Source: an uncultured Senegalimassilia sp. (GTDB taxonomy: Bacteria > Actinomycetota > Coriobacteriia > Coriobacteriales > Eggerthellaceae). From it: a stretch of DNA of 17,719 nt. Position 1 is the first letter of the stretch. Each line of letters opens with the position of its first letter. Positions 3,144 to 17,719 of the stretch are shown in pieces. The DNA is taken from positions 1 to 17,719 of the forward strand of contig CALEWN010000327.1 of assembly GCA_937925385.1 (NCBI GenBank). Direction: 5' to 3'. Under the pieces are notes generated by a model that ran no database searches, was not told the origin of the DNA, and saw only the letters and a list, made by a program, of their open reading frames with translations. Both the position numbers and the translations under genes were made by a program.

Positions 3144-3725
3144 ATGGATACTGCAAAGATCGAAGCCGGCGTTCGCATGATTCTGGAGGGCGTGGGTGAG
3201 AATCCCGATCGCGAAGGGCTGAAGGAAACGCCTGCGCGCGTTGCCCGTATGTACGAGGAAGTGTTCTCCGGCCTGACGGAAGATCCCGCCGTGCATTTCG
3301 CCACCACGTTCGATGAGCACTGCAGCGAAATGGTGCTTGTGCGCGACATCTACTTCTACTCCATGTGCGAGCATCACCTGGTGCCGTTCTTCGGCAAGGC
3401 CCATATCGCCTACATCCCCGCGGCGGATGGTCGCGTGTGCGGCTTGTCGAAGCTGGCGCGCCTGGTCGAAGTCTATGCAAAGCGTCCGCAGGTGCAGGAG
3501 CGTTTGACCTCGCAGATCGCCGACACCCTGGTCGAGCAGCTGAACCCCCAGGGCGTTGTGGTGGTGCTGGAGGCCGAGCACATGTGCATGAGCATGCGCG
3601 GCGTGAAGAAGCCCGGCAGCCACACGGTTACCAGCGCGGTGCGCGGCGTGTTCGCCGGCAGTACCGATGCGGCCCGTGCCTCGCGTTCCGAGGCCATGTC
3701 GCTCATCTTGCGCGAAACCCGATAA
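3144..3725 (+). CDS. folE: GTP cyclohydrolase I
   Basis: This cytosolic enzyme converts GTP to 7,8-dihydroneopterin triphosphate, the entry step to folate and related pteridines and to the deazapurine/queuosine branch. The 193-residue protein has the standard FolE1 layout: an N-terminal helix region, [20 protein letters not shown], the zinc and active-site motif [20 protein letters not shown] (C75, H78), [23 protein letters not shown], and the third zinc ligand C148 in [15 protein letters not shown]. Length is within the normal range for the core enzyme. AAGGA at about 3129 serves as a ribosome site. The next gene, a membrane transporter, begins 15 bases after its stop, so the two are almost certainly cotranscribed. 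No other folate or queuosine genes are present nearby, so the pathway served is not shown. Confidence 0.97.
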
Positions 3726-3740
3726 CGCAAAGGCTTGGTT

Positions 3741-4538
3741 ATGGAAGCCGTTGCCGACGTGTGTCAACAGCTGTTCGGCATCGCCCCGGGGGCTATGCTG
3801 CTGGTGTGCCTGCTCGTGTTCTTGGCGGGTTACGTCGACGCCATCGCGGGCGGCGGCGGACTGATCTCGCTGCCCGCTTACATGATCGCCGGCCTGCCCA
3901 CGCACGCCGCCATCGCCACGAACAAGATGAGCTCGACCATGGGCACCACCATCGCCACCTGGCATTATGCGAAATCGGGCTACATCCAATGGAAGCTGGC
4001 GGGTGTTTGCGTGGTGCTTGCCGTTGCCGGATCGACCATCGGGTCGAACCTGGTCCTCATCACCAGCGATGCGTTCCTGCGCGTGTTCCTGCTGGCGGTG
4101 CTGCCGATTACGGCCATCTACGTGATGAGGTCGAAGAGCTTCGGCAAGCAGGATAAGGAGTCGCTTTCGCCGAAGCGTACCGCGGCGCTTTGCGCGCTGG
4201 TGGCGTTTTGCGTGGGCATATATGATGGCTTCTACGGTCCCGGCACGGGTACGTTTCTGATGCTGCTGCTCACCGGCGTGGCTCATCTGAAGCTCAAGTC
4301 CGCCGCCGGTATCACGAAGGCCATCAACCTTACCACTAACGTTACGGCACTGGTGGTCTTCCTTCTGCACGGTCAGGTGTTGCTGGTGTTGGGCTTGGTA
4401 GCGGGCGCATTCAACATTGTGGGCAACTACCTGGGTTCCCATAGCTTCTCGAAGAACGGCGGCGCGGTCGCCCGACCCATCACCATCGTCGTCCTGATCA
4501 TCTTCTTCGCGAAGGTTATTTGGGATTTCATCGCCTAG
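3741..4538 (+). CDS. TSUP/TauE-SafE family membrane transporter
   Basis: This is a predicted eight-segment inner-membrane protein of the sulfite exporter TauE/SafE family, whose members move small anionic, mostly sulfur-containing or carboxylate compounds. The two family repeats are clear: residues about 20-75 (AGYVDAIAGGGGLISLPAYM, then ATNKMSSTMGT) and residues about 155-210 (VGIYDGFYGPGTGTFLML, then GITKAINLTTNV). ATG at 3741 is preferred over the in-frame TTG at 3735 because AAAGG lies seven bases before it. It gives 265 residues, typical for the family. It follows folE by 15 bases. The substrate is unknown; the operon hints at a pterin-linked or sulfur-linked role, but that is inference only. 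Confidence 0.9.
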   Translation: MEAVADVCQQLFGIAPGAMLLVCLLVFLAGYVDAIAGGGGLISLPAYMIAGLPTHAAIATNKMSSTMGTTIATWHYAKSGYIQWKLAGVCVVLAVAGSTIGSNLVLITSDAFLRVFLLAVLPITAIYVMRSKSFGKQDKESLSPKRTAALCALVAFCVGIYDGFYGPGTGTFLMLLLTGVAHLKLKSAAGITKAINLTTNVTALVVFLLHGQVLLVLGLVAGAFNIVGNYLGSHSFSKNGGAVARPITIVVLIIFFAKVIWDFIA

Positions 4539-5108: not shown

Positions 5109-6428
5109 ATGACCCGAATCTATTCGTATACCCAGCCGCTCAATGCCGATATCGTCGATGCGTTCTGCCTTATGCAGAAGGGCTTCACCGATCAGTTCGT
5201 GTATTACCGCAAGGATCGTCCTACTCGTTTCATGGGTTTGGGGCGCTGTATCGCGCTGCCGACCTTGGACGAGGCCGAGTGCGAGCTGACGGGGCCGGCC
5301 GCCGAGCAGCCGGTGTTCTTCTCGTTCAACCGATTCGACGCGCATAACCCCGCGCCGGCCGATGAGCTGTTCCAGTCGTTTCCCAATCTGCATTTCATGC
5401 TGCCCGAAGTGGTGCTCATCGAGAACGAGCGCGGCGCTTTCCTGCAGGTGAACTCCCTTGGCCCGGTGTACGCCGGCCGCGTCGAGCGCTTCGCGCGCCT
5501 TGCCCTGACGGTGCCGCGACGCACGCGACGGACCGTTTCGTACCAGCTGGAGCTCGATTCGCGCTCTGCCTGGGAACAGGCCGTGGGAAGCGGGCTTGAC
5601 GCCATCAAGGAAGGCCGCGTGGAGAAGGTGGTGCTTTCCCGTCGCCTGAAGCTGCGCGCCGATGAGCCGTTCTCCTCGAAGGACCTGCTGGTGAACCTGA
5701 TCGACGGCACCGCGCATGGAACCGTGCTGCTGTACCGATATGCCGACGTGTTCTTCTGCGGCTGCACCCCCGAGCTGCTCGTGCGGAAATCGGGCTGCGA
5801 ACTGGAAAGCATGTGCTTGGCCGGAACCTGCCCGGCATCGCCCGACCCCGTGGAGAACAATCGCCTTGCACAAGATTTGCTGAACGACGCGAAGAACCGC
5901 GCCGAGCATGACTACGTTGTGCGCTTCATCCGAGATGTGCTGGGCCGCACGTGTTATGCGGTCGATGTCCCGAAGCAGCCGACCATCATGCCGTTGACGC
6001 GCATCCAGCATCTGATGACTCCCGCCCGCGCAAAACTGCTTGAAGGTGTGGACCTGTGGTCGATGATGGGCGATTTGCACCCCACGCCCGCGGTTTCGGG
6101 CACGCCGGTCGGCGAGGCGAAGATGCTCATTCGCCAGATCGAAACCTACAATCGCGGCTTCTTCGCCGGCGCTTGCGGCTACGTGGATGCCGCGGGAGAC
6201 GGCGAGTTCAGCGTGGCGCTGCGTACCGGCGTGTTCGACGGCGAGATCGGCTACGTGTACGCCGGATGCGGCATCGTCGACGGCAGCCGTGCGGCGGACG
6301 AATACGATGAGATCGCGCTGAAACTGAAAACCGTTCTCTCGGCATTCGACGGCGAAGCCGGTGCCTCCTCGCCTGCCGCGCAAACCAGCCCGCAAACCAC
6401 GACCGCAGGGGAAGGAGAAGCTCGATGA
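5109..6428 (+). CDS. menF: Isochorismate synthase
   Basis: MenF catalyses chorismate to isochorismate, the first committed step of menaquinone synthesis. The 439-residue protein has a variable N-terminal half and the chorismate-binding fold in the C-terminal half. Visible motifs are VEKVVLSRRL with the general-base lysine, CGCTPELLVR, CLAGTCPASPDP, DAKNRAEHDYVVRFI with metal-site glutamate, LHPTPAVSGTPVGEA, IETYNRGFFAGACGY, and YVYAGCGIVDGSRAADEYDE. The AGT motif is followed by Cys where anthranilate and aminodeoxychorismate synthases carry Arg, in line with isochorismate synthases, which vary here. GGGAGA precedes the ATG. Its stop overlaps the menD start (ATGA), so the two are translationally coupled. 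Salicylate synthase activity is unlikely given the adjacent menD. Confidence 0.94.
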   Translation: MTRIYSYTQPLNADIVDAFCLMQKGFTDQFVYYRKDRPTRFMGLGRCIALPTLDEAECELTGPAAEQPVFFSFNRFDAHNPAPADELFQSFPNLHFMLPEVVLIENERGAFLQVNSLGPVYAGRVERFARLALTVPRRTRRTVSYQLELDSRSAWEQAVGSGLDAIKEGRVEKVVLSRRLKLRADEPFSSKDLLVNLIDGTAHGTVLLYRYADVFFCGCTPELLVRKSGCELESMCLAGTCPASPDPVENNRLAQDLLNDAKNRAEHDYVVRFIRDVLGRTCYAVDVPKQPTIMPLTRIQHLMTPARAKLLEGVDLWSMMGDLHPTPAVSGTPVGEAKMLIRQIETYNRGFFAGACGYVDAAGDGEFSVALRTGVFDGEIGYVYAGCGIVDGSRAADEYDEIALKLKTVLSAFDGEAGASSPAAQTSPQTTTAGEGEAR

Positions 6429-8422
6429 CCGTCGCCGACCCGCGTGCAACCGCGCGCTTCCTAGGAGCCTTCTTCGACGAGCTTGCGAAATGGGGCGTGG
6501 AAAACGTGGTGATCAGCCCGGGATCGCGCTCCACCCCGCTGTCCATGACCGCCTACGAGCTGTCTTGCCGCGCCCCGCAGCGGATGAGCACGTATGTGGA
6601 CATCGATGAGCGCGGCGCCGCCTTCCTGGCGCTGGGCATGGCGAAGGCATCCGGTCGTCCGGCGGCGCTGGTGTGCTCGTCGGGCACGGCCATCGCCAAC
6701 TACTATCCGGCCATCCTTGAGGCGGAGTCGTCGCGCGTGCCCCTTATTGTGCTGACGGCAGATCGCCCGCCGCAGCTGCAGGGGCTGGGTGCTCCGCAAA
6801 CCTGCGATCAATCGCATGCTTACGGCACGCACGTGCGCGCCTATCGCGGTATGCCTTTGCCCGCAGACGACGAAGGCTCGCTGCGCTTCGCCCGCCAAGC
6901 CGCCCGCGAGGCGTGCATCGCCGCGCTCGGGTCGTGCGAGCTCCCGCAAAACCAGGGAGCGCAAAACCCCTCGGCTGCAGCGACAGGCGTATCCCAGCGT
7001 CTCGCCGGAACCTGCTTCGGCGGCCCGGTGCACCTGAACTTCCCGTTCGACGAGCCGCTGAAACCTGATGTGACGCTGTCCGATCTGTTCGATGCCGGCA
7101 TCTCCTGCGCTGACGCTACCGCGGACGGCGCGGCTCGCGCACCCAAGCCCGTCCGCAATCCGCTGCTTCCCGTCGGCATTGCGCAGGTGCGCGGGGGCAT
7201 GGAAGGCGTCGCTGCGGCGCAGCTTGCCCGCGAGCTGCTCGCCAACAACGTGTTGCTGTTGGCGGGCGAAGGATCGTGCGCCACGTACGAGGAAGCGCAG
7301 CGCGTGCTGGCCTTTGCGCGCGCATTCGCCATCCCTGTGCTCGCCGACCCGCTCTCGGGGCTGCGTTCCCTTGACGACCCATTGGTGATCGGCAACTACG
7401 ACAGCGTGTTCCAGCCTGGCGGCATTTCGCCCGACGACAGCCTGAACCCGCAGGTCATCGTGCGCTTTGGCAGATATCCCGTGTCGAAGCGCACGACGCA
7501 GTGGGCTCGTGCGCGCGAGGACGCCGGCGTGCTGCAGGTTGTGGTGGATCCCCTGGAAACGCGCGATACCAACGCCGCTACCACGGTTTTCGCTCGCATG
7601 AAGCCCGCCGATTTCGCGCAAAGCATGGAGCGCGCGCTGCGCACGGAGGACGGTCCTGCGGCGGCAGGCGCCAACGACTTGTCGTTTGCCAACGCCTGGC
7701 AGCGGGTGGAGGAATCCGCCGCAAAACGTATCGCTGCGGTGGATGCCGGCGAAGAATCCGGCGCCGACGGCTTCGAGGGCGCTTACGTTCGCCGCGTGCT
7801 GGAGCTTGCTCCCGAAGGCTCGTGCCTGTTCGCGGCAAACTCCATGAGCGTGCGCGCTGTGGACACCTTCTACCTGAAGGGCGGCAAGCAGCTCACCGTG
7901 CTGGCGAACCGGGGCCTGAACGGCATCGACGGCACGGTGTCCACGGCCATCGGCGCCTCGCGCTACTTCGGTCGGACCACGCTGATCACCGGCGACCTGA
8001 CCATGCAGCATGACCTGAACGCCTTGGCGCTGCAGCGTGAGCTGCGTATGCAGCGGCGGCTCTCCGGCATCGAGGAAGGAGCAAGCCGCACACCGGAGCA
8101 GGATGCCAAGTGCGATACCCGCGAAGCAGATGCCGGCGCCCAGGGTATTACCATTGTGTTGCTGAACAACAACGGCGGTGCCATATTCGACATGCTGCCG
8201 CAGAAGTCGCAGGAAGCGTATTTCGAGCGCCTGTTCCTCACGCCCCAGGACGTGGACTTCCAAGCTGCTGTCACCGCATTCGGCGTGCCCTACAGCAAAA
8301 CGGCCACGTTGGCCGAGTTCGACCGGGCATATCGCGCATCGCTGGATGTGCCGGGCATCAGCTTCATCGAGGTGCCCGTGCCGCTGCAAGGCCTGCGCGA
8401 GCGATACGCCGATTATTGGTAG
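6425..8422 (+). CDS. menD: SEPHCHC synthase (MenD)
   Basis: This ThDP-dependent enzyme joins isochorismate and 2-oxoglutarate, releasing CO2, to give 2-succinyl-5-enolpyruvyl-6-hydroxy-3-cyclohexene-1-carboxylate. Motifs in order: VVISPGSRSTPLSM (residues about 32-45), DERGAAFLALGMAKASGRP with the ThDP-activating Glu, CSSGTAIANYYPAILEA, NRGLNGIDGTVSTAIGAS, LITGDLTMQHDLNAL, and VLLNNNGGAIFDMLPQ, the Mg-diphosphate site. At 665 residues it is about 100 longer than E. coli MenD. Two hydrophilic inserts are visible, residues about 172-198 (between the N-terminal domain and GGPVHLNFPF) and about 541-575 (between the LNALALQREL helix and the NNNGG strand). GGAAGGAG at 6410 is the ribosome site, inside menF. 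Confidence 0.95.
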   Translation: MTVADPRATARFLGAFFDELAKWGVENVVISPGSRSTPLSMTAYELSCRAPQRMSTYVDIDERGAAFLALGMAKASGRPAALVCSSGTAIANYYPAILEAESSRVPLIVLTADRPPQLQGLGAPQTCDQSHAYGTHVRAYRGMPLPADDEGSLRFARQAAREACIAALGSCELPQNQGAQNPSAAATGVSQRLAGTCFGGPVHLNFPFDEPLKPDVTLSDLFDAGISCADATADGAARAPKPVRNPLLPVGIAQVRGGMEGVAAAQLARELLANNVLLLAGEGSCATYEEAQRVLAFARAFAIPVLADPLSGLRSLDDPLVIGNYDSVFQPGGISPDDSLNPQVIVRFGRYPVSKRTTQWARAREDAGVLQVVVDPLETRDTNAATTVFARMKPADFAQSMERALRTEDGPAAAGANDLSFANAWQRVEESAAKRIAAVDAGEESGADGFEGAYVRRVLELAPEGSCLFAANSMSVRAVDTFYLKGGKQLTVLANRGLNGIDGTVSTAIGASRYFGRTTLITGDLTMQHDLNALALQRELRMQRRLSGIEEGASRTPEQDAKCDTREADAGAQGITIVLLNNNGGAIFDMLPQKSQEAYFERLFLTPQDVDFQAAVTAFGVPYSKTATLAEFDRAYRASLDVPGISFIEVPVPLQGLRERYADYW

Positions 8423-8536: not shown

Positions 8537-9424
8537 ATGCAAATGCTGAACGAGCAGTCGGAAACCGCCTGCTTCGACGTTGACGGAGTCCGATATCGTT
8601 TTCTGTATATGAAGGAGGAAGATCCCGCCCGCGGCCGCCGCCGTTCCCCGGTGCTGTTCGTTCACGGATTCGCGCAAAACGCGCTGTCCTGGTTCCCTAC
8701 AAGCCGCGCCATCTTCCTTGAGCGCGACGTGTACGGTATCGACCTTGTCGGTCACGGCGGGTCGGCGGTCCCGTTCCACCCCGCGCCGTACAGCTTGATT
8801 TCCATGGGCGAGGCGCTGCTTGCCCTTATCAAGCTGATTCCTGGAAAACCCCTGGTGGTGGGCTATTCCATGGGTGGGCGCGTTGCGCTTTCCGCGCTGC
8901 TTGAGGCGGGCCCCGCCGCTTTCGCCAAGCAAACGAGCGGCCTGCTGCTGGAAAGCGTGGGCATGGGGCCGAAAACGCAGGCGGAACGCGATGCCGCCAT
9001 TGAGCGCGATGCCGATACGGCGCGGCGCCTGCGTGAGATGCCGCTCAAGGATTTCATGACCTATTGGGAGAACTTGCCGCTGTTCGCATCGCAGAAGGCG
9101 CTGCCGAAGAAGGTCCGCGCCGCGGTGCGCGCCAACAGGCTTGCCAACGACCCCGAGGCGTTGGCGAAGTGCGTGGAGTGCGCCGGGCAGCACCGCATGC
9201 CCTCGTATCGCGAGACCACGGCGGCGCTGCGCGACCTCGGCCTGCGCGGCTACCCTGCCCTCTACCTGGCCGGCGAGAAGGACGCGAAGTACAGCAAGCT
9301 TGCGAGGAGCTTGCACGAGGATGGGATCATCAGAACGCGCATCGCGCCGAAGGTGGGACATAACGTCCACCTGGAAGCCCCGGATGTTTTCGCCGCCTGC
9401 GTGCACAGCGTGGCGACGCGCTAG
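8537..9424 (+). CDS. menH: SHCHC synthase-like alpha/beta hydrolase (MenH)
   Basis: This is an alpha/beta-hydrolase fold protein, most likely the enzyme that eliminates pyruvate from SEPHCHC to give SHCHC. Visible elements: the oxyanion-hole motif LFVHGFAQNALSW (residues about 36-48), DLVGHGGSA, the nucleophile elbow VVGYSMGGRVAL with Ser, YLAGEKDAKY with the acidic triad member, and KVGHNVHLEAPD with the catalytic His. The triad and the menF-menD neighbours support MenH, but this fold is used for many reactions, so the name rests partly on context. At 295 residues it is longer than E. coli MenH (252). A strong GAGGAG lies seven bases before ATG 8537. The 114-base gap after menD, with an inverted repeat, suggests that it can be expressed separately. 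Confidence 0.85.
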   Translation: MQMLNEQSETACFDVDGVRYRFLYMKEEDPARGRRRSPVLFVHGFAQNALSWFPTSRAIFLERDVYGIDLVGHGGSAVPFHPAPYSLISMGEALLALIKLIPGKPLVVGYSMGGRVALSALLEAGPAAFAKQTSGLLLESVGMGPKTQAERDAAIERDADTARRLREMPLKDFMTYWENLPLFASQKALPKKVRAAVRANRLANDPEALAKCVECAGQHRMPSYRETTAALRDLGLRGYPALYLAGEKDAKYSKLARSLHEDGIIRTRIAPKVGHNVHLEAPDVFAACVHSVATR

Positions 9425-9470
9425 CAAGGCGTCGGCGGCCTCATCGGGAGGGCCCCTCCAACCGCATCAC

Positions 9471-9516
9471 GGGCGCTTGCCGCGAACGTCCTCCAAAGCG
9501 CTTGCGGCAAGCGCCC
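9471..9516 (+). terminator. Long hairpin after menH, probable terminator
   Basis: GGGCGCTTGCCGC (9471-9483) pairs perfectly over 13 bases with GCGGCAAGCGCCC (9504-9516), followed by a weak T-rich tail (GTTTCGTT). An alternative nested hairpin, GCGCTTG-CGG-CAAGCGC at 9498-9514, competes for the same 3' arm. Confidence 0.55.
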
Positions 9517-9570
9517 CGTTTCGTTCGCTGCATCCCGCACCATGTTCCCATGCATTGCCCGATCAAGCCG

Positions 9571-9596
9571 TTGACGTGGTGCGGCTTTGCTACAAT
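9571..9596 (+). promoter_or_regulatory. Putative extended -10 promoter for the c-di-GMP gene
   Basis: TGCTACAAT at 9588-9596 is an extended -10 element (TGn plus TACAAT). TTGACG lies upstream at 9571-9576, but the 14-base spacer is short, so the extended -10 is the main support. Initiation near 9603 leaves a leader of about 57 bases. Confidence 0.5.
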
Positions 9597-9659
9597 ACTC
9601 TCGCTGGAAAACAGCATTCCCGCATATCCGAATCATCTCGAAACAGAGGCTCACCGGCT

Positions 9660-11570
9660 ATGGACGATGACGAAAAGCAAGGTATCGAGCACCAAGATCA
9701 GCTACCCGATATGTCACGGGGCGAACTGGACGCGGAAATCGGTCGCTTGCTCGGGACCTACCCTGTTGTGCGCTTTCTCGATGAGGAGGACATCGAGAAA
9801 GAAGATTCCTGCCTTCTGTACGGCAGCTCGTGCGTCTGCATGCGCGGGGTGTGCAAGGATATCCTGCGCAACGGGGGCTCCCGAACCGACAGGGTCCTCA
9901 TGGGCGATCTGGTTCATCGCGCGTCGGCTCAACGGGTGAACGTCGACGGCAAGCCGGGCGTTCTCATGTGCGCTCAACCCATCGATGAGATCGCCGGCAG
10001 CATGCTTTCCGAAGAGCTGCTCTATCACGATGCTTTGTCGGGTGCTTACAACCGGCGTTTCTACGAGGACAACCTGCGCAACCAGCACGTGTTCGCCGGC
10101 GTGGCGGTTTTGGACCTGGACGATTTCAAGCTGGTCAACGACACGCTGGGCCACCACGCGGGCGACGTCGCCATCAAAACGGCCGTGAGCGTGCTCAGAG
10201 GCTGCATCCGGTCCAGCGATATGCTCGTGCGCTACGGCGGCGACGAGTTCGTGCTGGTCATCCCCGGTATCTCCGCCGATGTGTTCGCGCGCAAGCTGCA
10301 CGATATGGGCGATAAGCTGGCCGAAACGCCCGTTCCCGGGTATGAACGCCTCAACCTCACCGTCAGCATCGGCGGCGTGCTGTCCGAGGGGCGCACCGTC
10401 GAGGAGTCGGTACGCCAGGCCGACGGCCTCATGTACAAGGCGAAGGGCCGCAAGAATCTCGTCATCACCGATTCCGACGACCTTGATCCCTACGAGTTCC
10501 ATAAACCGTTGCTGCTGGTGGTGGACGATTCCGAGATGAACCGCGCCATCTTGAGCGAGATGCTCAAAGAACAGTACGAGATTCTCGAGGCGGATTGCGG
10601 CGAAGCGGGCATCGCGTGTTTGGAGCAACATGGAAGCGGCATTTCCGTCGTGCTGCTCGACATCGTCATGCCCGGCGTCGACGGCTTCGACGTGCTTTCC
10701 CTCATGTGGCGCAACGGCTGGATCGACGACATCCCCGTCATCATGATCTCCAGCGAGGATTCCGACGACTCGGTGCTGCGCGCCTATGAGCTGGGTGCTT
10801 CCGACTACATCAGCCGCCCCTTCGATTCGCGCATCGTGCGCCAACGCGTCAGCAACATCATGCGCCTGTACACCAAGCAGCGGCGTCTTTCCACCATGCT
10901 CGCGCAGCAGTTCTACGAGCGCGAACGCGAAAGCCGTATGCTCGTCGACATCATGGGCGGCGCGATGGAGCTGCGCAACGGCGAAAGCGGGCCGCACGTG
11001 CAGCACGTGCGCAAGCTCACCGAGATGATGCTGGAGCATCTGGTGCGCAAGACGGACCGCTATCACATCAGCTCAAGCGAGCGCAGCACCATTGCCGCCG
11101 CTTCAACGCTGCATGACCTGGGGAAATTGTCCATCCCCGACAATATTTTGAACAAGCCGGGCCGGTTGACTCCCGAGGAGTTCGAGATCATGAAGACCCA
11201 CACCACCATCGGCGGCGATATGCTGGAGGGCATGGTGCAGTACCGCGACAGCGCCCTGGTGCGCGCGGCGCGCGACATCTGCCGCTGGCATCACGAGCGT
11301 TACGACGGCAACGGATACCCCGATGGGCTGAAGGGCGAGGAGATTCCCATTTCGGCGCAGGTCGTCTCGCTGGTGGACGTCTACGACGCCCTTACCAGCG
11401 ACCGTGTGTACAAAAAAGCGTTCTCGCATGAGAAGGCCATGCACATGATCTTGAACGGGGATTGCGGCGCGTTCAATCCGCTGCTGATCGATTGCCTTAT
11501 CGATCTGCAGGATCGCATCGTCGCCGAGAAGGACGAGCAAGGTCCACCCCCCCCCTATTTCAGTGAATGA
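9660..11570 (+). CDS. GGDEF-REC-HD-GYP c-di-GMP synthesis/degradation response regulator
   Basis: This 636-residue cytosolic protein has four parts. Residues 1-115 are a PAS-like segment with four cysteines (C51, C58, C60, C65) and a VDGKPGVLM strand. Residues about 120-275 are a GGDEF diguanylate cyclase with intact GGDEF at 193-197 and an inhibitory I-site RSSD at 184-187, the canonical five residues before. Residues about 284-405 are a receiver domain with acidic pair D289/D290 and phosphoacceptor D334 (LLDIVMPG). Residues about 430-615 are an HD-GYP phosphodiesterase with LHDLGK (H485, D486), HHERYDGNGYPDGLKGEEIP and FNP. All catalytic motifs look active, so it may both make and break c-di-GMP under phosphorylation control. 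No membrane segments are visible. The start at 9660 fits the promoter, although the ribosome site is weak. The 3' end contains a run of nine C. An Hpt gene follows. Confidence 0.93.
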   Translation: MDDDEKQGIEHQDQLPDMSRGELDAEIGRLLGTYPVVRFLDEEDIEKEDSCLLYGSSCVCMRGVCKDILRNGGSRTDRVLMGDLVHRASAQRVNVDGKPGVLMCAQPIDEIAGSMLSEELLYHDALSGAYNRRFYEDNLRNQHVFAGVAVLDLDDFKLVNDTLGHHAGDVAIKTAVSVLRGCIRSSDMLVRYGGDEFVLVIPGISADVFARKLHDMGDKLAETPVPGYERLNLTVSIGGVLSEGRTVEESVRQADGLMYKAKGRKNLVITDSDDLDPYEFHKPLLLVVDDSEMNRAILSEMLKEQYEILEADCGEAGIACLEQHGSGISVVLLDIVMPGVDGFDVLSLMWRNGWIDDIPVIMISSEDSDDSVLRAYELGASDYISRPFDSRIVRQRVSNIMRLYTKQRRLSTMLAQQFYERERESRMLVDIMGGAMELRNGESGPHVQHVRKLTEMMLEHLVRKTDRYHISSSERSTIAAASTLHDLGKLSIPDNILNKPGRLTPEEFEIMKTHTTIGGDMLEGMVQYRDSALVRAARDICRWHHERYDGNGYPDGLKGEEIPISAQVVSLVDVYDALTSDRVYKKAFSHEKAMHMILNGDCGAFNPLLIDCLIDLQDRIVAEKDEQGPPPPYFSE

Positions 11571-12154: not shown

Positions 12155-12994
12155 ATGAGCGACATCCAGTGGCAACCTGGAAAGCAGTACCGCGAGATCG
12201 TCTATGAAACGTACGAGGGCATCGCGAAGATCACCATCAACCGTCCCTCCAGGCGCAACGCCTTCACGCCTCTCACGGTGAACGAGATGTACGACGCGTT
12301 CTCCGTGGCGCGCGATGACGCCTCCGTCGGCGTCATCATCCTCACGGGCGCCAACCATGGCGGCCGTCACGAGGACGAGGCGTTTTGCAGCGGCGGCGAC
12401 CAGAAGGTCCGCGGCAACGGCGGCTACGTCGGCGAGGACAACATCCCCCGCCTGAACGTGCTCGACCTGCAGCGCCTGATCCGCGTGGTGCCCAAGCCCG
12501 TCATCGCCATGGTTAACGGCTATGCCATCGGCGGCGGCCACGTGCTGCACATCCTGTGCGACCTGTCCATCGCCGCGGAAACGGCGAAGTTCGGCCAGAC
12601 GGGCCCGAAGGTTGGCAGCTTCGACGCCGGTTACGGCGCGGGCTATCTGGCGGCCATGGTCGGCCAGAAGAAGGCGCGCGAGATCTGGTACCTGTGCCGT
12701 CAGTACACGGCGCAGGAGGCGCTCGACATGGGCATGGTCAACAAGGTGGTGCCTTTCGAGCAGCTCGAGGAGGAAACGGTGCAGTGGGCGCGCGAGATGC
12801 TGCAGTTCAGCCCCACGGCGCTGCGCTTCATGAAGGCGTCCTTCAACGCCGCCACCGACGGCCTGGCCGGTCTGCAGCAGTTCGCCGGCGACGCAACGCT
12901 GCTGTACTACACCACCGCCGAGGCGATGGAGGGCCGCGATGCGTTCAAAGAGAAGCGCAAGCCCGATTTCTCCAAGTACCCCAAGTTCCCGTAA
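12155..12994 (+). CDS. menB: 1,4-dihydroxy-2-naphthoyl-CoA synthase
   Basis: MenB is a crotonase-fold enzyme that closes the second ring of the naphthoquinone, turning o-succinylbenzoyl-CoA into DHNA-CoA. The 279-residue protein is of standard length and strongly conserved: [34 protein letters not shown] with oxyanion-hole glycines, [60 protein letters not shown] with the conserved Asp and Tyr region, and the C-terminal [20 protein letters not shown] that swaps into a neighbouring subunit. GGAAGGA lies six bases before the ATG. The menE-menC fusion follows after 42 bases with no terminator, so the two form one operon. Confidence 0.97.
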
Positions 12995-13036: not shown

Positions 13037-15886
13037 ATGATCAGCGTATTCGAAGGCATGGTGCGGCAGAACCCGCAGCGCACGTGCTTCACGTTTGTCG
13101 ATAAGGAAGGGAACGTGGAAGCGTTCTCGTACAGGGAAGCCCGCATGATGGCGGCGGGCTTGGCCAGCCTGTTGCGTCGAAGGGGCGTCGAGCCGGGCGA
13201 CGCCGTGGTTGTCGATCTGCCGAACAACCCGGCTTTCGTCATCATGCTGCTTGCGGCCGCCTACGGCGGGTTCTCGCTTGTCACCATGAACACGCGCCTG
13301 ACCGATGCCGAGAAGCAGGCGCGCCTGCTCGACCTGCAGCGATCCCGTGCCATGACCATCGCCTACACGGTCGACATGTCGAACGCGGGGCACCTGCTCC
13401 AAACCGTGGCCGACGAGGCGACCGGCACCGCCGAGACGGCAGCGCATGGCCGCGGCCATGCGCAGCGCACGGCGTTCACGGCGCGCACCAACATCGCCAC
13501 CGCCGAGGCCCGCACCACCCGTGCGCTCGGTCGCGCGGGCCATGGGCGCCAGGCGGCAGCTCGCCGCCGCGAGGACGTTGCTCGGCAAGATGCGGTGGAA
13601 AGCGTCATCCATTTCGCCGAACGCGGCGCGCATGTGTTCGACCATGGCGCCGTGGCGGTGGTCATGTTCACGTCCGGCACCACCGGCCGCTCGAAGGCCG
13701 TGCCCCTGACCTGGGACAACCTATGCAATTCGGCGGCGGTCTCGAACGCTGCGCTCAATCGCCGCGGCGAAGGGCTGTGGCAGGCGGCGCTTCCCCTGTA
13801 CCATGTGGGCGGCCTGCAAATGGTGGTGCGCAGCTTCCTGAACGCGAACCCGTTCATCCTGTACGAGCGCTTCGATGCCCGCCGTGTGCTGGCCGATGCC
13901 GCCCGTCGCGGTGCCACCCATATCTCGGTGGTTGACAAGATGCTGCAGGACATGCTGGCCGCGCCGAACGCCGATCAGCTGCGCCGCTACGTGTGCATCC
14001 TGCTGGGCGGCGGTCCGTTGAACGCGCAGACGCTCGGCAGCGCCTTGGCCGCCCGCGCCCGCGTGTACGCCAGCTACGGCATGACCGAGACGTCCAGCAA
14101 TATCGCGAACTCCCTGGTGACGCCCGGTTTCACGGGCGGCATGCAGCTGCTTTCCGGCTACGAGGCCCGCATCGTGGACGCCGGCCCCGATGGGTTCGGC
14201 CGTCTTGCCGTGCGAGGCCCCGGGCTGTTCTCGGGCTATTTGAACGCGCGGGCCGCCTACACGGCCGACGGGTTCTTCCTCACGGGCGACACGGCCGCCA
14301 TCGCGCCTGATGGCAAGCTCTATGTGAAGGAACGCACCGACGACATGTTCGTCTCGGGCGGGGAGAACGTCTACCCGGCCGAGATCCGCGAGAAGCTGCT
14401 GCGCGTGCCCGGTGTGGCCGACGCATACATCTTCGGCGCGCCCGACGAGAAGTGGGGCCGCCGTCCCGTCGGCTTCATCGAGCGAGATGCGGCCTTCGAC
14501 CCGTCGAAATCCATGCCCGCATCCATCGCGTCAGGCGTCGCTGGAAAGCGCGGCCGCACCGTTTCCGACCGCATGTTCGCCCAGGAGGCGGCGCGCAACG
14601 TGGCTTCCCAGTTGTCGCGCGTGTACCAGTCGAAGCACCTGTTCGTGCTGGACAGCTTCCCGCGCACGGGCATCGGCAAGGTGGACCGCTCGGCCTTGCG
14701 CAGCCTGTACGACCAGCGCATCAAGGTCAAGCGCGTGAACCTGTACCGTATCCGCCTGCCGTTCCGCAAGCCCTTTGCCACGGCGAAGGGGACGCTGTCG
14801 TTCCGCGAATCGCTGCTGGTGGAAGTGGTGGACCATGCCGGGCGCACGGGTTTGGGCGAGTGCGCCGCCTTCCCCACCGACTGGTATCTTCCCGAAACGC
14901 TCGATCAGGACCTTCGCATCCTGCAGGAGCAGCTCATACCCTTGGTGCTGAACACCGTGTTCCTGCATCCCTCCGAGGCCGATGGCCTGTTGGCGGCGTG
15001 CCCGGGCGCCGATGCGCTGCCTATGGCGCGCGGGGCCATCGAGCCGGCGCTGTGGGACCTGTACGGCAAGATCGTCGGCCAGCCGCTGTGGCGGCTCATT
15101 GGCGGGCAGGCGCCCGAAGACGGCCGGCCCGCCTCAACGTCGGCGGGCGCCGCAGTGCCCGTGGGCTCGGTTTCCGACACGCTTGCCGCCGTGCAGCGTT
15201 GCGTGGACGATGGGTACACGCGCGTGAAGCTGAAGGTGACGCCGGGTACCGCGCCGTTTTGCGTGCAAGCGGTACGCGAGGCGTTCCCCGACCTGGTCAT
15301 ATCGCTTGACGCGAACCAAAGCTTCACCGAGCGGGACCTCGACGTGCTGCGCGGGTTCGATGCGCTGGGCATCGCCTGGATCGAGGAGCCTCTCGATTCG
15401 CGGCGCGCGCCGGCAAACGGCCCGCACGACCTGTTCGCGCGCCTGGCCCAGCTGCAGCGCCGCATCCAAACGCCGGTGTGCCTGGACGAATCCATCTTCA
15501 CCGCAAGCGATTTGGCGAAGGCGCTCAAGCATCAGGAGCTGAAGTGCTTTGCGCTCAAGATCGGGAAATTCGGCGGCATCCAGCCTTCGCTGCAGTTCGT
15601 GCGCATGGCGAACGCGCGCGGCATGAGCGTGTGGATGGGCGGCATGTACGATACCGGCATCTCGCGGCGTGTCCATTCCGCGTTCCAGATGCTGCCCGGC
15701 GTGATCGACGCGGGCGACGTCGGTGCCACCTCGCGCTATTTCGACGTCGATGTCACCGATCCGCCCTACACGGTGGAGCGCGGGACGGTCACGCTCGAAC
15801 GCCGAGGTCACGAGCATGGTCTGGGCTGCGCGCTCGATCGCTCCGCCTTGTCGCGCGTGCTCATCGACCAGCAAACCTACGAATAA
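13037..15886 (+). CDS. menE-menC: Fused MenE-MenC: o-succinylbenzoate-CoA ligase + o-succinylbenzoate synthase
   Basis: A single 949-codon frame encodes two consecutive menaquinone enzymes in reverse pathway order. Residues about 1-562 are an ANL-family ligase: MFTSGTTGRSKAVPLT (from about 210), YGMTETSSN (about 347), FLTGDTAAIAPDGKLYVKER, MFVSGGENVYPAEI, and catalytic K548 in TGIGKVDRS. Residues about 563-949 are an enolase-superfamily MenC: YRIRLPFRKPFATAKG, KxK at K731/K733, metal ligands D758 (SLDAN), E783 (WIEEP) and D817 (CLDES), and K841 in ALKIGKFGG. The linker is only a few residues, and the frame is uninterrupted with uniform codon use. An Ala/Arg-rich insert occupies residues about 124-190 in the ligase. 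The ribosome site (AAAGGTAGG) is rather far from the ATG, which fits coupling to menB. All active-site residues appear intact, so a bifunctional protein making OSB-CoA from SHCHC is expected. Confidence 0.92.
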   Translation: MISVFEGMVRQNPQRTCFTFVDKEGNVEAFSYREARMMAAGLASLLRRRGVEPGDAVVVDLPNNPAFVIMLLAAAYGGFSLVTMNTRLTDAEKQARLLDLQRSRAMTIAYTVDMSNAGHLLQTVADEATGTAETAAHGRGHAQRTAFTARTNIATAEARTTRALGRAGHGRQAAARRREDVARQDAVESVIHFAERGAHVFDHGAVAVVMFTSGTTGRSKAVPLTWDNLCNSAAVSNAALNRRGEGLWQAALPLYHVGGLQMVVRSFLNANPFILYERFDARRVLADAARRGATHISVVDKMLQDMLAAPNADQLRRYVCILLGGGPLNAQTLGSALAARARVYASYGMTETSSNIANSLVTPGFTGGMQLLSGYEARIVDAGPDGFGRLAVRGPGLFSGYLNARAAYTADGFFLTGDTAAIAPDGKLYVKERTDDMFVSGGENVYPAEIREKLLRVPGVADAYIFGAPDEKWGRRPVGFIERDAAFDPSKSMPASIASGVAGKRGRTVSDRMFAQEAARNVASQLSRVYQSKHLFVLDSFPRTGIGKVDRSALRSLYDQRIKVKRVNLYRIRLPFRKPFATAKGTLSFRESLLVEVVDHAGRTGLGECAAFPTDWYLPETLDQDLRILQEQLIPLVLNTVFLHPSEADGLLAACPGADALPMARGAIEPALWDLYGKIVGQPLWRLIGGQAPEDGRPASTSAGAAVPVGSVSDTLAAVQRCVDDGYTRVKLKVTPGTAPFCVQAVREAFPDLVISLDANQSFTERDLDVLRGFDALGIAWIEEPLDSRRAPANGPHDLFARLAQLQRRIQTPVCLDESIFTASDLAKALKHQELKCFALKIGKFGGIQPSLQFVRMANARGMSVWMGGMYDTGISRRVHSAFQMLPGVIDAGDVGATSRYFDVDVTDPPYTVERGTVTLERRGHEHGLGCALDRSALSRVLIDQQTYE

Positions 15887-15908: not shown

Positions 15909-16038
15909 TATGGTGGCCCGGGGCGGCATAGCGTTCTCGGGCCGTCGCGATTCCGGCGCACGGCATCGCCTTCCGTATCAGATGCCGCTTCGGCGTGCGC
16001 GGCTCCCGTGATACCGCTCGGCTTCGCGCTCCGTCCCG

Positions 16039-16060
16039 TTGCGTGAATCGCATCACGCAA
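16039..16060. promoter_or_regulatory. CRP/FNR-type palindrome upstream of the arginine/ornithine antiporter gene
   Basis: TTGCGTGA-N6-TCACGCAA is a perfect 8-base inverted repeat whose core GTGA-N6-TCAC has exactly the spacing of CRP/FNR-family operators. Its centre lies about 103 bases before the predicted transcription start. ArcR, a CRP/FNR-family protein, controls arginine deiminase genes in several Firmicutes, so an ArcR-like or cAMP/FNR-like regulator is a reasonable guess. The palindrome is seen; the regulator is inferred. Confidence 0.5.
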
Positions 16061-16119
16061 AACCGCGCATACACCCGAGGTATTATTCATTTGCATCGGA
16101 AAATATCCCATACGAATCC

Positions 16120-16146
16120 TTTACAAAGCTATGTGTGGGGTATAGT
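16120..16146 (+). promoter_or_regulatory. Putative promoter of the antiporter gene
   Basis: TTTACA (16120-16125) and TATAGT (16141-16146) each match consensus at five of six positions, but the 15-base spacer is short. This may make the promoter activator-dependent. Initiation near 16153 leaves a short leader of about 28 bases. Confidence 0.5.
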
Positions 16147-16180
16147 GAAACGGACTGTTTTTTCCGATGAGGAGGGTTTG

Positions 16181-17688
16181 ATGAACAACGCTAACGAAGC
16201 GGCAGGCGCTTCTATGGCCGCTTCCGGCACGGTGGCAACCGGGTCCGGCGCGCTGCATGATATGGAACATCACGGCAAGCTGGGCATCTTCCGTCTAGTA
16301 GCGTCGGTCATCACGCTGATCCTCGGCGCCGGCGTGTTCACGCTGTCCGGCGACCAGGCCGCCCATGGCGCCAGCGGCGCCGCCATCCTCACGGCTTGGG
16401 GCATCTCGGCGGTGGGCGTGCTGTGCCTGGTCATGACGTTTTTCGCGTTGTCGCGCCTTAAGCCCCAGCTCAAGGGTGGCATCTACAGCTATGCGGCCGC
16501 TGGCTTCGGCGACTTTTTGGGCTTCAACAGCGCTTGGGGCTACTGGATCTCGGCCATCCTGTGCACCGTCAGCTTCTCCGCGCTCCTGTGCGGCGCCTTG
16601 TCCTACTTCTTCCCCGTCTTCGGCGCGGGCAACAACCTGCCGTCCGTCATCGTGGCCAGCTGCATCATCTGGTTCTACGCGTTTCTGGTCAGCCGCGGCG
16701 TGAAGGAGGCTGCGGGCGTCAACCTGATCATCACCATCAGCAAGTTCGTCCCCATCTTCGTCGCGCTCACCGCAATCATCTTCTTCCAGAAGTTCGATGT
16801 GAACATCTTCATGGAGAACATGGCGCACGGCTCGATGGAGGGCATGACGTTCTTCGAGCAGGTCAGCGGCACCATGATGGTCACCATCTGGGTGTTCCTC
16901 GGCATCGAGGGCGCCGTGGCCATCTCCGGCCGCGCCAAGAAGGACAGCGACGTCGGCAAGGCCACCGTCATCGCCTTTGTCTGCGTGCTCACCATCTACC
17001 TGCTGGTCTCCACCCTGTCCATGGGCGTCATGCCGCTGTCCGAGCTGTCCGAGCTCTCCAACCCGGCGCTTGCCGGCGTTATGGAACGCGCCGTGGGCCC
17101 GTGGGGCGCCACGCTCATCAACGGCGGCGTGGTGCTGTCCCTGGTGGGCGCCATGCTCGGCTACACCGTGCTCTCCGCCGAGTGCCCCTACGAGGCGGCG
17201 GCCCAAGGCGGCTTCGTGAAGACGTTCGCCCGCGTGAACAAGAAGGGCGCGCCCATCGTCACGTTGGTTGTCACGAACCTGGTCATCGAGGCGTTCCTCG
17301 TCATCATGCTGTTCTCCGAGAGCACGTACCAGTTCTTCTACTCGCTGTCCGCTGGCATGATCTTGCTGCCGTACCTGCTTTCGGCCGCGTATTTCGCGAA
17401 GGTCGCCTTCACCGAGGCCGGCTCCTTCAAAGGCAAGCTGGGCGTTCCCGTGGCGGTTTGGCGCGTGTTCGCCATCCTCGGCGTCATCTACAGCGTGTTC
17501 CTTGCGTGGGCAAGCGGCGCCGTCGGCGTTACGCTCATGTCCATCCTGTATGCTCCTGGCATCTTGGTATATATCAAGGGCAAGAAGGAGCGTAGCCAAC
17601 CGTTCTTGGACAACGCCCGCGATCGCGTGGTGGCCGCCGTCATCCTCATCGCGGCCATCGTGTCGATCGGTCTGTTGGTCACGGGAAC
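16181..17688 (+). CDS. arcD: Arginine/ornithine antiporter (ArcD-type, APC superfamily), 3' end missing
   Basis: This is a multi-spanning inner-membrane amino-acid antiporter of the basic amino acid/polyamine antiporter family. 502 codons are visible. A hydrophilic N-terminus of about 33 residues precedes transmembrane segment 1 with GAGVFTLSGDQAAHGA. Next come GGIYSYAAAGFGDFLGF and SAWGYWISA, SRGVKEAAGVN, VWVFLGIEGAVAISGRAKK with SDVGKATVIAF, NPALAGVMERAVGPWGA, SAECPYEAAAQGG, FSESTYQFFYSLSAGMILLP, and a final hydrophobic segment at the cut. These motifs match ArcD-type exchangers, which swap external arginine for internal ornithine in the arginine deiminase pathway. GGAGGG lies four bases before ATG 16181. 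The frame reaches the adapter, and only a few C-terminal residues should be missing. A lysine or agmatine exchanger of the same family cannot be excluded; no arcA/B/C genes are in view. Confidence 0.9.
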
Positions 17689-17719
17689 AGATCGGAAGAG
17701 CACACGTCAGAACTCCAGT
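17689..17719 (+). other. Illumina adapter remnant (read-2 side)
   Basis: The last 31 bases start AGATCGGAAGAGCACACGTC and follow the TruSeq read-2 adapter, with one mismatch at 17709 (A in place of T). They are library sequence. Any reading frame extended through them, including the antiporter C-terminus, is artefactual. Confidence 0.98.

Follow-up and report, generated by a model that had tools for sequence, protein, structure and literature searches.

The gene menE::menC, located at positions 13037..15886 on the plus strand of a 17,719-nucleotide stretch of DNA from an uncultured Senegalimassilia sp. (assembly GCA_937925385.1, contig CALEWN010000327.1; the whole stretch is called the window), very likely encodes a bifunctional enzyme, as judged from its domains and catalytic residues: a MenE-like ligase of the ANL family and the o-succinylbenzoate synthase MenC are joined in a single chain of 949 residues. 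Sequence comparisons let us predict with considerable confidence that this protein acts in the classical menaquinone pathway, that the fusion has a single origin and that its halves are connected by a rigid joint. The fusion is the normal state in those Coriobacteriia that have the pathway. Both enzymes are well studied singly, and the class-wide weld is unnamed in the literature searched; searches of open-licence full texts found no paper on a MenE-MenC fusion. The relatives found are deposited as 'o-succinylbenzoate synthase' or, in one case (P0173), as 'AMP-binding protein'; no deposited name covers the two functions together, and pathway reconstructions may therefore report MenE as missing in these gut bacteria.

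Domains, active sites and joint of the fused protein

The single frame starts with an ATG 42 bases past the menB stop and contains no internal stop codon. Four Pfam domains were found in the protein, all above the gathering score: the large domain of the ligase (AMP-binding, PF00501, residues 8-402, 13058..14242, 171.8 bits), its lid domain (AMP-binding_C, PF13193, residues 452-548, 14390..14680, 32.2 bits), the capping domain of MenC (MR_MLE_N, PF02746, residues 575-689, 14759..15103, 41.4 bits), which carries the capping-loop residues F612, Y617 and E620, and the MenC barrel (MR_MLE_C, PF13378, residues 716-936, 15182..15844, 115.6 bits). The ligase half contains the P-loop region MFTSGTTGRSKAV (residues 210-222, 13664..13702; T212-SGTTGRSK-220 within it), YGMTE at 347-351, TGD at 416-418, R433 and the catalytic Lys548 (14678-14680), which is the last residue of the lid; all 13 key positions, comprising the ANL core motifs and the catalytic lysine, carry the expected residues. 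The MenC half contains the KxK motif (K731 and K733, 15227..15235) and, within 15308..15559, the metal ligands D758 (15308), E783 (15383) and D817 (15485) and the second lysine K841 (15557-15559). These catalytic positions follow the motifs of the two enzyme families. Upstream of the P-loop the ligase contains an Ala/Arg-rich insert (residues 103-205, 13343..13651), recognised by length comparison and in the structural model, where the predicted local distance difference test (pLDDT) falls to about 55; 101 residues lie between 103 and 205.

The earlier note, made from the letters alone, had claimed an uninterrupted MenE-MenC frame of 949 residues with two complete active sites and a minimal linker, and all of this held: the frame is open, the four domains are recognised, relatives down to 41% identity are built alike, the catalytic residues of both halves are present, and only 26 residues separate Lys548 from Pro575. 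An assembly artefact, i.e., a stop codon missing or an indel in this assembly, is extremely improbable and was rejected, as no support for it was found: the same fused frame occurs in isolates and in metagenome-assembled genomes of many genera, among them the complete chromosome of Adlercreutzia hattorii (NZ_AP022829). Because relatives down to 41% identity share the frame, it is neither a chance product nor the result of a lost stop. A near relative of the window is Senegalimassilia anaerobia (L001, 94%). When the fusion protein was used as query, which itself favours the fusion, other ligase-type matches in the near relative G001 reached at most 66 bits.

By sequence, the closest solved structures are Bacillus MenE and, for the second half, the Enterococcus and Thermus enzymes of the o-succinylbenzoate synthase/N-succinylamino acid racemase (OSBS/NSAR) kind. 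The ligase is best matched, in sequence and in fold, by MenE of Bacillus subtilis (5x8f/5x8g/5buq) and Staphylococcus aureus (3ipl), with which it shares the P-loop, YGMTE, TGD, the lid and Lys548; unlike known MenE it carries MenC on its C-terminus and a variable insert before the P-loop, and it scores below the cut-off of the MenE model TIGR01923, which is why it is named MenE-like here. The MenC half has the same fold as MenC of the NSAR/OSBS subfamily (Enterococcus faecalis 1wue, Listeria 1wuf, Thermus 2zc8, Amycolatopsis 1sja/7s8w) and shares KxK, the D/E/D ligands and the second lysine with it; the NCBIfam menC model TIGR01928 gave 245.5 bits (cut-off 200.65). It differs from these enzymes in being fused behind a ligase and in having Lys844, which is conserved at a level of 90% or more in a set of 66 fusions, in place of the racemase hallmark Arg266. 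From the alignment to 1wue we take this position, three residues past the second lysine, to be that of Arg266 of N-succinylamino acid racemase; the title of the PDB entry 7s8w names an R266Q mutant.

Functionally, the C-terminal half would dehydrate 2-succinyl-6-hydroxy-2,4-cyclohexadiene-1-carboxylate to o-succinylbenzoate (OSB), the N-terminal half would adenylate OSB and then transfer it to coenzyme A (CoA), and MenB, encoded just upstream, would take over the OSB-CoA. The domain order is the reverse of the reaction order, as the earlier note had pointed out; a functional reason for this is not needed, because menE precedes menC in operons of the Bacillus type. The Enterococcus columbae locus L053 shows this order as well, with both genes on one strand and menE about 4 kb upstream of menC.

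The joint (residues 549-575, 14681..14761) is defined by the model and by its constant length. The gap of 26 residues is found in 68/68 intact and 10/10 degenerate fusions, while elsewhere the 68 relatives vary strongly, the insert before the P-loop comprising 3-254 residues and a loop in the lid 4-94. For comparison, constant length in the 68 was seen in 249 of 922 windows of joint size and in all 32 windows tested within residues 517-575. An AlphaFold2 model built with 66 sequences (pLDDT 89.9, predicted template modelling score 0.83) shows a helix (551-559) followed by a strand (562-581) as a direct passage from ligase to MenC, with a confidence by block of 88, 95, 98 and 92 from 541 to 580. 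Normalised by target length, the template modelling (TM) score of the ligase half is 0.81 with Bacillus 5x8f and 0.66 with 5gtd, which we take to represent the thioester-forming state and an adenylate complex, respectively; the MenC half reaches 0.92 with 1wue and 0.90-0.93 with NSAR/OSBS structures. In passing from one half-reaction to the other, ANL lids undergo a large rotation. Because the lid's last helix leads directly into the first MenC strand, MenC would ride on the lid as the ligase switches between the adenylating and the thioester-forming state; either MenC would move with the lid, or the large ligase domain may move instead. The joint thereby poses the mechanical question of how an ANL lid can swing with a second enzyme of about 390 residues attached to it.

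Distribution and origin of the fusion

The class sample comprised 396 Coriobacteriia genomes. menB scored over its cut-off in 76 of them and a menD match (E ≤ 1e-30) was present in 81; a fusion-type menC frame was found in 81 genomes among the matches listed, the basis of all fusion counts for this sample, including G129 and G371, whose genes are cut by contig ends. Of 73 genomes having menB and menD, 71 have the fusion as well. In the other two, G146 and G136, the gene runs off a contig: G146 has one frame with the ligase and the beginning of MenC before the contig stops, and in G136 the contig ends within the ligase. Further combinations are as follows: menB and the fusion occur without menD in G203, menB occurs alone in G252 and G322, and nine genomes have the fusion without menB and menD. 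The matches listed also include many unfused frames of about 360-520 aa that resemble menC and score under its cut-off; they come from genomes having neither menB nor the fusion and were taken for other enolase-superfamily enzymes. Genomes with menD over its cut-off and neither menB nor fusion are, e.g., G058, G332, G113, G176, G121 and G258.

A genome scan returned 55 loci, of which 53 were left after removal of Enterococcus L053 and Methylobacterium L055 (the titles of L014 and L035 carry no class name). Both halves share one open frame in 49 of the 53; in L025 this frame is interrupted by unknown bases upstream of the joint, and L037 begins at a contig border. The remaining four loci are the halves of two contig-cut genes (L046/L051 and L048/L049). 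The fusion noticed in this one genome is real and it is not special to it.

Outside the class, a sample of 396 Actinomycetota genomes, overlapping the class sample in its Coriobacteriia, was searched. All menC frames longer than 812 aa among the matches listed came from genomes of the class sample. No menE relative was found at E 1e-5 in 14 fetched menC loci of Actinomycetota (L092-L105), which represent 13 distinct places (six best scorers, six long frames reaching 812 aa at most, and a single one of 587 aa); the same menC list has further frames of 590-670 aa outside these loci. The idea that the fusion is widespread in Actinomycetota was dropped, as it was not found among the loci sampled outside Coriobacteriia. 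Long proteins were searched with two queries, each search scoring only the roughly 8000 candidates with most shared words. When the query was the MenC part of a deep-branching fusion from Coriobacteriia, 95 proteins were found, and a check for the AMP-binding plus MR_MLE architecture recovered PF00501 and MR_MLE domains in 91 of them; all organism names given among the 95 are Coriobacteriia. With Enterococcus columbae MenC, 17 proteins were found, four of them with PF00501: P0134 and P0151 of the Coriobacteriia fusion family, P0229 of the same family with a decayed MenC, and P0231 with the domains in reverse order. Among the loci checked and the long proteins searched, no fusion in MenE-MenC order was found outside Coriobacteriia. 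P0231 (806 aa) resembles the fusion in having MenC and MenE in one chain and differs in that MenC comes first; its match to the Enterococcus MenC query covers 68% of that query at 28% identity. It is evidently an independent fusion. Other long proteins join MenC to an alpha/beta hydrolase of the MenH-like kind (P0217) or to a GNAT acetyltransferase (P0207), and P0221 is a MenC carrying a long C-terminal extension.

PHYLLO of plants and algae is described in passages of two papers as a MenF-MenD-MenC-MenH fusion (PMC2412073, PMC6189191), and in the latter MenE is stated to act in the peroxisome, after OSB has left the plastid. It resembles the protein described here in holding MenC inside a multi-enzyme protein of the same pathway and differs in lacking MenE; the fusion consists of ligase and MenC domains only.

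Trees of the two halves were compared after unknown residues (X) had been removed. Among well-supported splits, 36/43 of the MenE tree recur in the MenC tree and two conflict with well-supported MenC splits; conversely, 35/39 of the MenC tree recur in the MenE tree and two conflict. The trees are quick ones with several long branches and an outgroup of only two unfused rows; neither includes the G129 and G371 pieces, and the MenC tree also lacks G252. Most likely the fusion has a single origin, no later than the common ancestor of the fusion-bearing Coriobacteriia in the sample, and it would have come about by the joining of two genes that stood in the order menE-menC.

Fates of the two halves where the pathway is broken

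Both halves were checked at 13 ligase and six MenC key positions, drawn from the motifs of these enzymes, and at residues invariant across the family (48 in the ligase, 38 in MenC); the two sets of residues give one and the same picture. All 19 positions could be read in 68 of the 71 genomes that combine menB and menD with the fusion, and all 68 are intact in both halves; G382, G129 and G371 are contig-cut and intact where readable. Tested one by one, the intact genomes keep at least 94% of the ligase and at least 95% of the MenC invariants. menF is over its cut-off in 8/8 intact controls, without a match in the 11 pathway-broken genomes, and weakly matched in G322.

In two genomes with menB and without menD and menF, the ligase was kept and MenC is dead or absent. 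G203 (Adlercreutzia sp. ZJ141; L026, L121) retains 48/48 ligase and 25/38 MenC invariants, having lost Asp817 and Lys841, and G252 retains 47/48 ligase invariants in a frame that stops right after the lid, the MenC half being gone. The nine fusion genomes without menB, menD and menF show the opposite: the ligase is intact in 0/9, while the six catalytic residues of MenC are intact in 6/9, K733 is replaced by arginine in G215 and G366, and MenC is ruined in G373. These nine keep 23-37/48 ligase and 29-37/38 MenC invariants, and their distribution needs at least three changes on the MenE tree and at least four on the MenC tree. Their barrel lysines and metal ligands are mostly retained; among the residues invariant in the 68 intact fusions, those of the capping loop are changed most often, Tyr617 in 8/9, Phe612 in 5/9 and Glu620 in 4/9 (changed in G190, G215 and G366, a gap in G363). 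The ligase half has its full length in 8/9; the ninth, G363, is cut by a contig end and sits on a 3.5-kb contig. Some of the nine are fragmentary, and the lack of menB, menD and menF in single genomes may reflect incompleteness. Directly downstream of the pseudo-ligase fusion, G190 (L116) and G276 (L124) carry a similar frame of 642 and 646 aa starting with MGLTR.QWF, which, judged by eye, looks like a transporter. Decayed database proteins also occur among the 152 fusion rows that were left from 181 after removal of near-identical C-terminal parts: P0184, P0189 and P0195 in the ligase, P0211 and P0215 in both halves and P0229 in MenC (P0231, L025 and L048 were left out of this comparison of intact and degenerate halves).

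The ratio of nonsynonymous to synonymous substitution rates (dN/dS) was estimated for 19 pairs by simple counting; dS comes close to saturation in several of them, and in two it is undefined for one or both halves. In the closest pathway-less pair, G184/G276, it is 0.068 for the dead ligase and 0.074 for MenC, compared with 0.06-0.28 in intact pairs; G269/G286 gave 0.22 and 0.16, and the more distant G366/G215, as weaker evidence, gave 0.59 and 0.40. The dead ligase of the closest pair is thus still subject to strong purifying selection, and at least two lineages have a dead ligase that does not decay freely. A branch-rate test on a fixed tree (79 rows, 87 background branches, G382 also left out) gave mixed results. 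The MenE half is accelerated on the G269/G286 stem (1/87 background branches as extreme) and in G363 (0/87), the MenC half is accelerated in G203 (1/87), and G190 leans toward MenE (7/87); the G184/G190/G276 stem (3/87 as low) and the short G276 branch (1/87) lean the opposite way, and the rest are unremarkable. As a general rule, faster evolution of the dead half is only partly true. The menaquinone prenyltransferase failed as a discriminator, a menA-like match being present in 20/20 genomes and above the cut-off in only two.

Passages of one study propose that microbes with menEBIAG may use OSB and those with menAG 1,4-dihydroxy-2-naphthoate (PMC4746308). The patterns described above suggest full menaquinone makers, probable OSB importers and probable importers of a later precursor, with G203 as a candidate OSB importer. 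It is also tentatively suggested, somewhat short of an even chance, that several lineages which lost the upstream pathway live on an exogenous precursor, that their ligase has become a maintained pseudo-enzyme and that MenC, with its altered capping loop, has turned to a new substrate. If true, the fusion, besides being a bifunctional vitamin K enzyme, would also be the starting point of a new enolase-superfamily enzyme that contains a pseudo-ligase; this pseudo-ligase variant is the most interesting part of the finding. The half-dead fusions constitute a natural experiment that may tell makers, OSB importers and importers of later precursors apart in the gut, classes that are hard to infer from gene presence alone and that were proposed on other grounds in the passages cited (PMC4746308).

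Several observations weigh against a bifunctional enzyme of the classical pathway with a single origin. TIGR01923 is the best model for the ligase half, yet it gives 263.6 bits with a cut-off of 330.15, and the menH-like alpha/beta hydrolase of the window (8537..9424, plus strand) likewise stays below its own cut-off (TIGR03695, 175.1 versus 208.55 bits). Eight genomes of the class sample have a menD match and neither menB nor the fusion. In G322 the genes are unfused, with menB-menE and menC (303.8 bits) on different contigs (loci L086, L114); it has no menD match over the cut-off, and it breaks the rule that menB without menD is paired with a dead MenC. In both trees its MenE and MenC group with Enterococcus proteins, across the branch from all fusions, and the unfused genes may stem from transfer or contamination.

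Coupling the two steps may bring an advantage, and why the halves stayed joined can be explained in several ways. That OSB is passed directly from MenC to MenE, and that the fusion was retained for such channelling, is unlikely: the constant joint in 78/78 fusions speaks for it, as does P0231, whose opposite order hints that joining these enzymes is useful, but OSB is a soluble free intermediate and one half persists alone, in G203, in G252 and in the nine reverse cases. It is possible that the joining was neutral, an early-fixed read-through of adjacent operon genes that was hard to reverse and brought no benefit except equal dosage. The domain order matches the gene order of Bacillus-type operons, and the halves are inherited together and degenerate separately; the fixed length of the joint, so unlike that of the non-core stretches, argues against neutrality, although the stiff helix-strand passage could itself suffice to fix it. 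Rather doubtful is a structural coupling in which each half serves as a folding or oligomerisation platform that stabilises the other. The dead ligase of G184/G276, constrained like its MenC and like intact pairs, and the full-length ligase in all but the contig-cut one of the nine pathway-less genomes would fit such a platform, but an N-terminal ligase must stay in frame anyway for MenC to be translated, the ratios of G366/G215 are higher, and G252 has an intact ligase without the MenC half, so that the ligase does not always need MenC.

Genes around the fusion in the window

The bifunctional enzyme favoured here is encoded at the end of a men gene series. On the same strand, the order before the fusion is menF-menD-menH-(regulator)-menB, with menF encoding isochorismate synthase (5109..6428, TIGR00543, 278 bits), menD (6425..8422, TIGR00173, 378.9 bits) and menB (12155..12994, TIGR01929, 412.7 bits), all three above their cut-offs. 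The regulator between menH and menB is encoded by an open frame that combines GGDEF, receiver and HD domains (within 9141-11570, plus strand); its actual start is probably located past the end of menH. In the relatives, menB lies within the fetched stretch in 70/84 rows and is upstream on the same strand in 70/70; of the remaining 14 rows, nine are the pathway-less genomes and five are stretches that are cut or short.

A link to defence systems was not indicated, PADLOC giving 0 families. Upstream of the men genes, and on the plus strand as well, the window contains genes for a SPOUT methyltransferase (1240-1782), a protein of the endonuclease/exonuclease/phosphatase kind (1932-2990), GTP cyclohydrolase I (3144-3725) and a TauE-type exporter (3735-4538). 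Downstream of the fusion an amino acid permease is encoded on the same strand, starting at 15995 (within 15995-17719).

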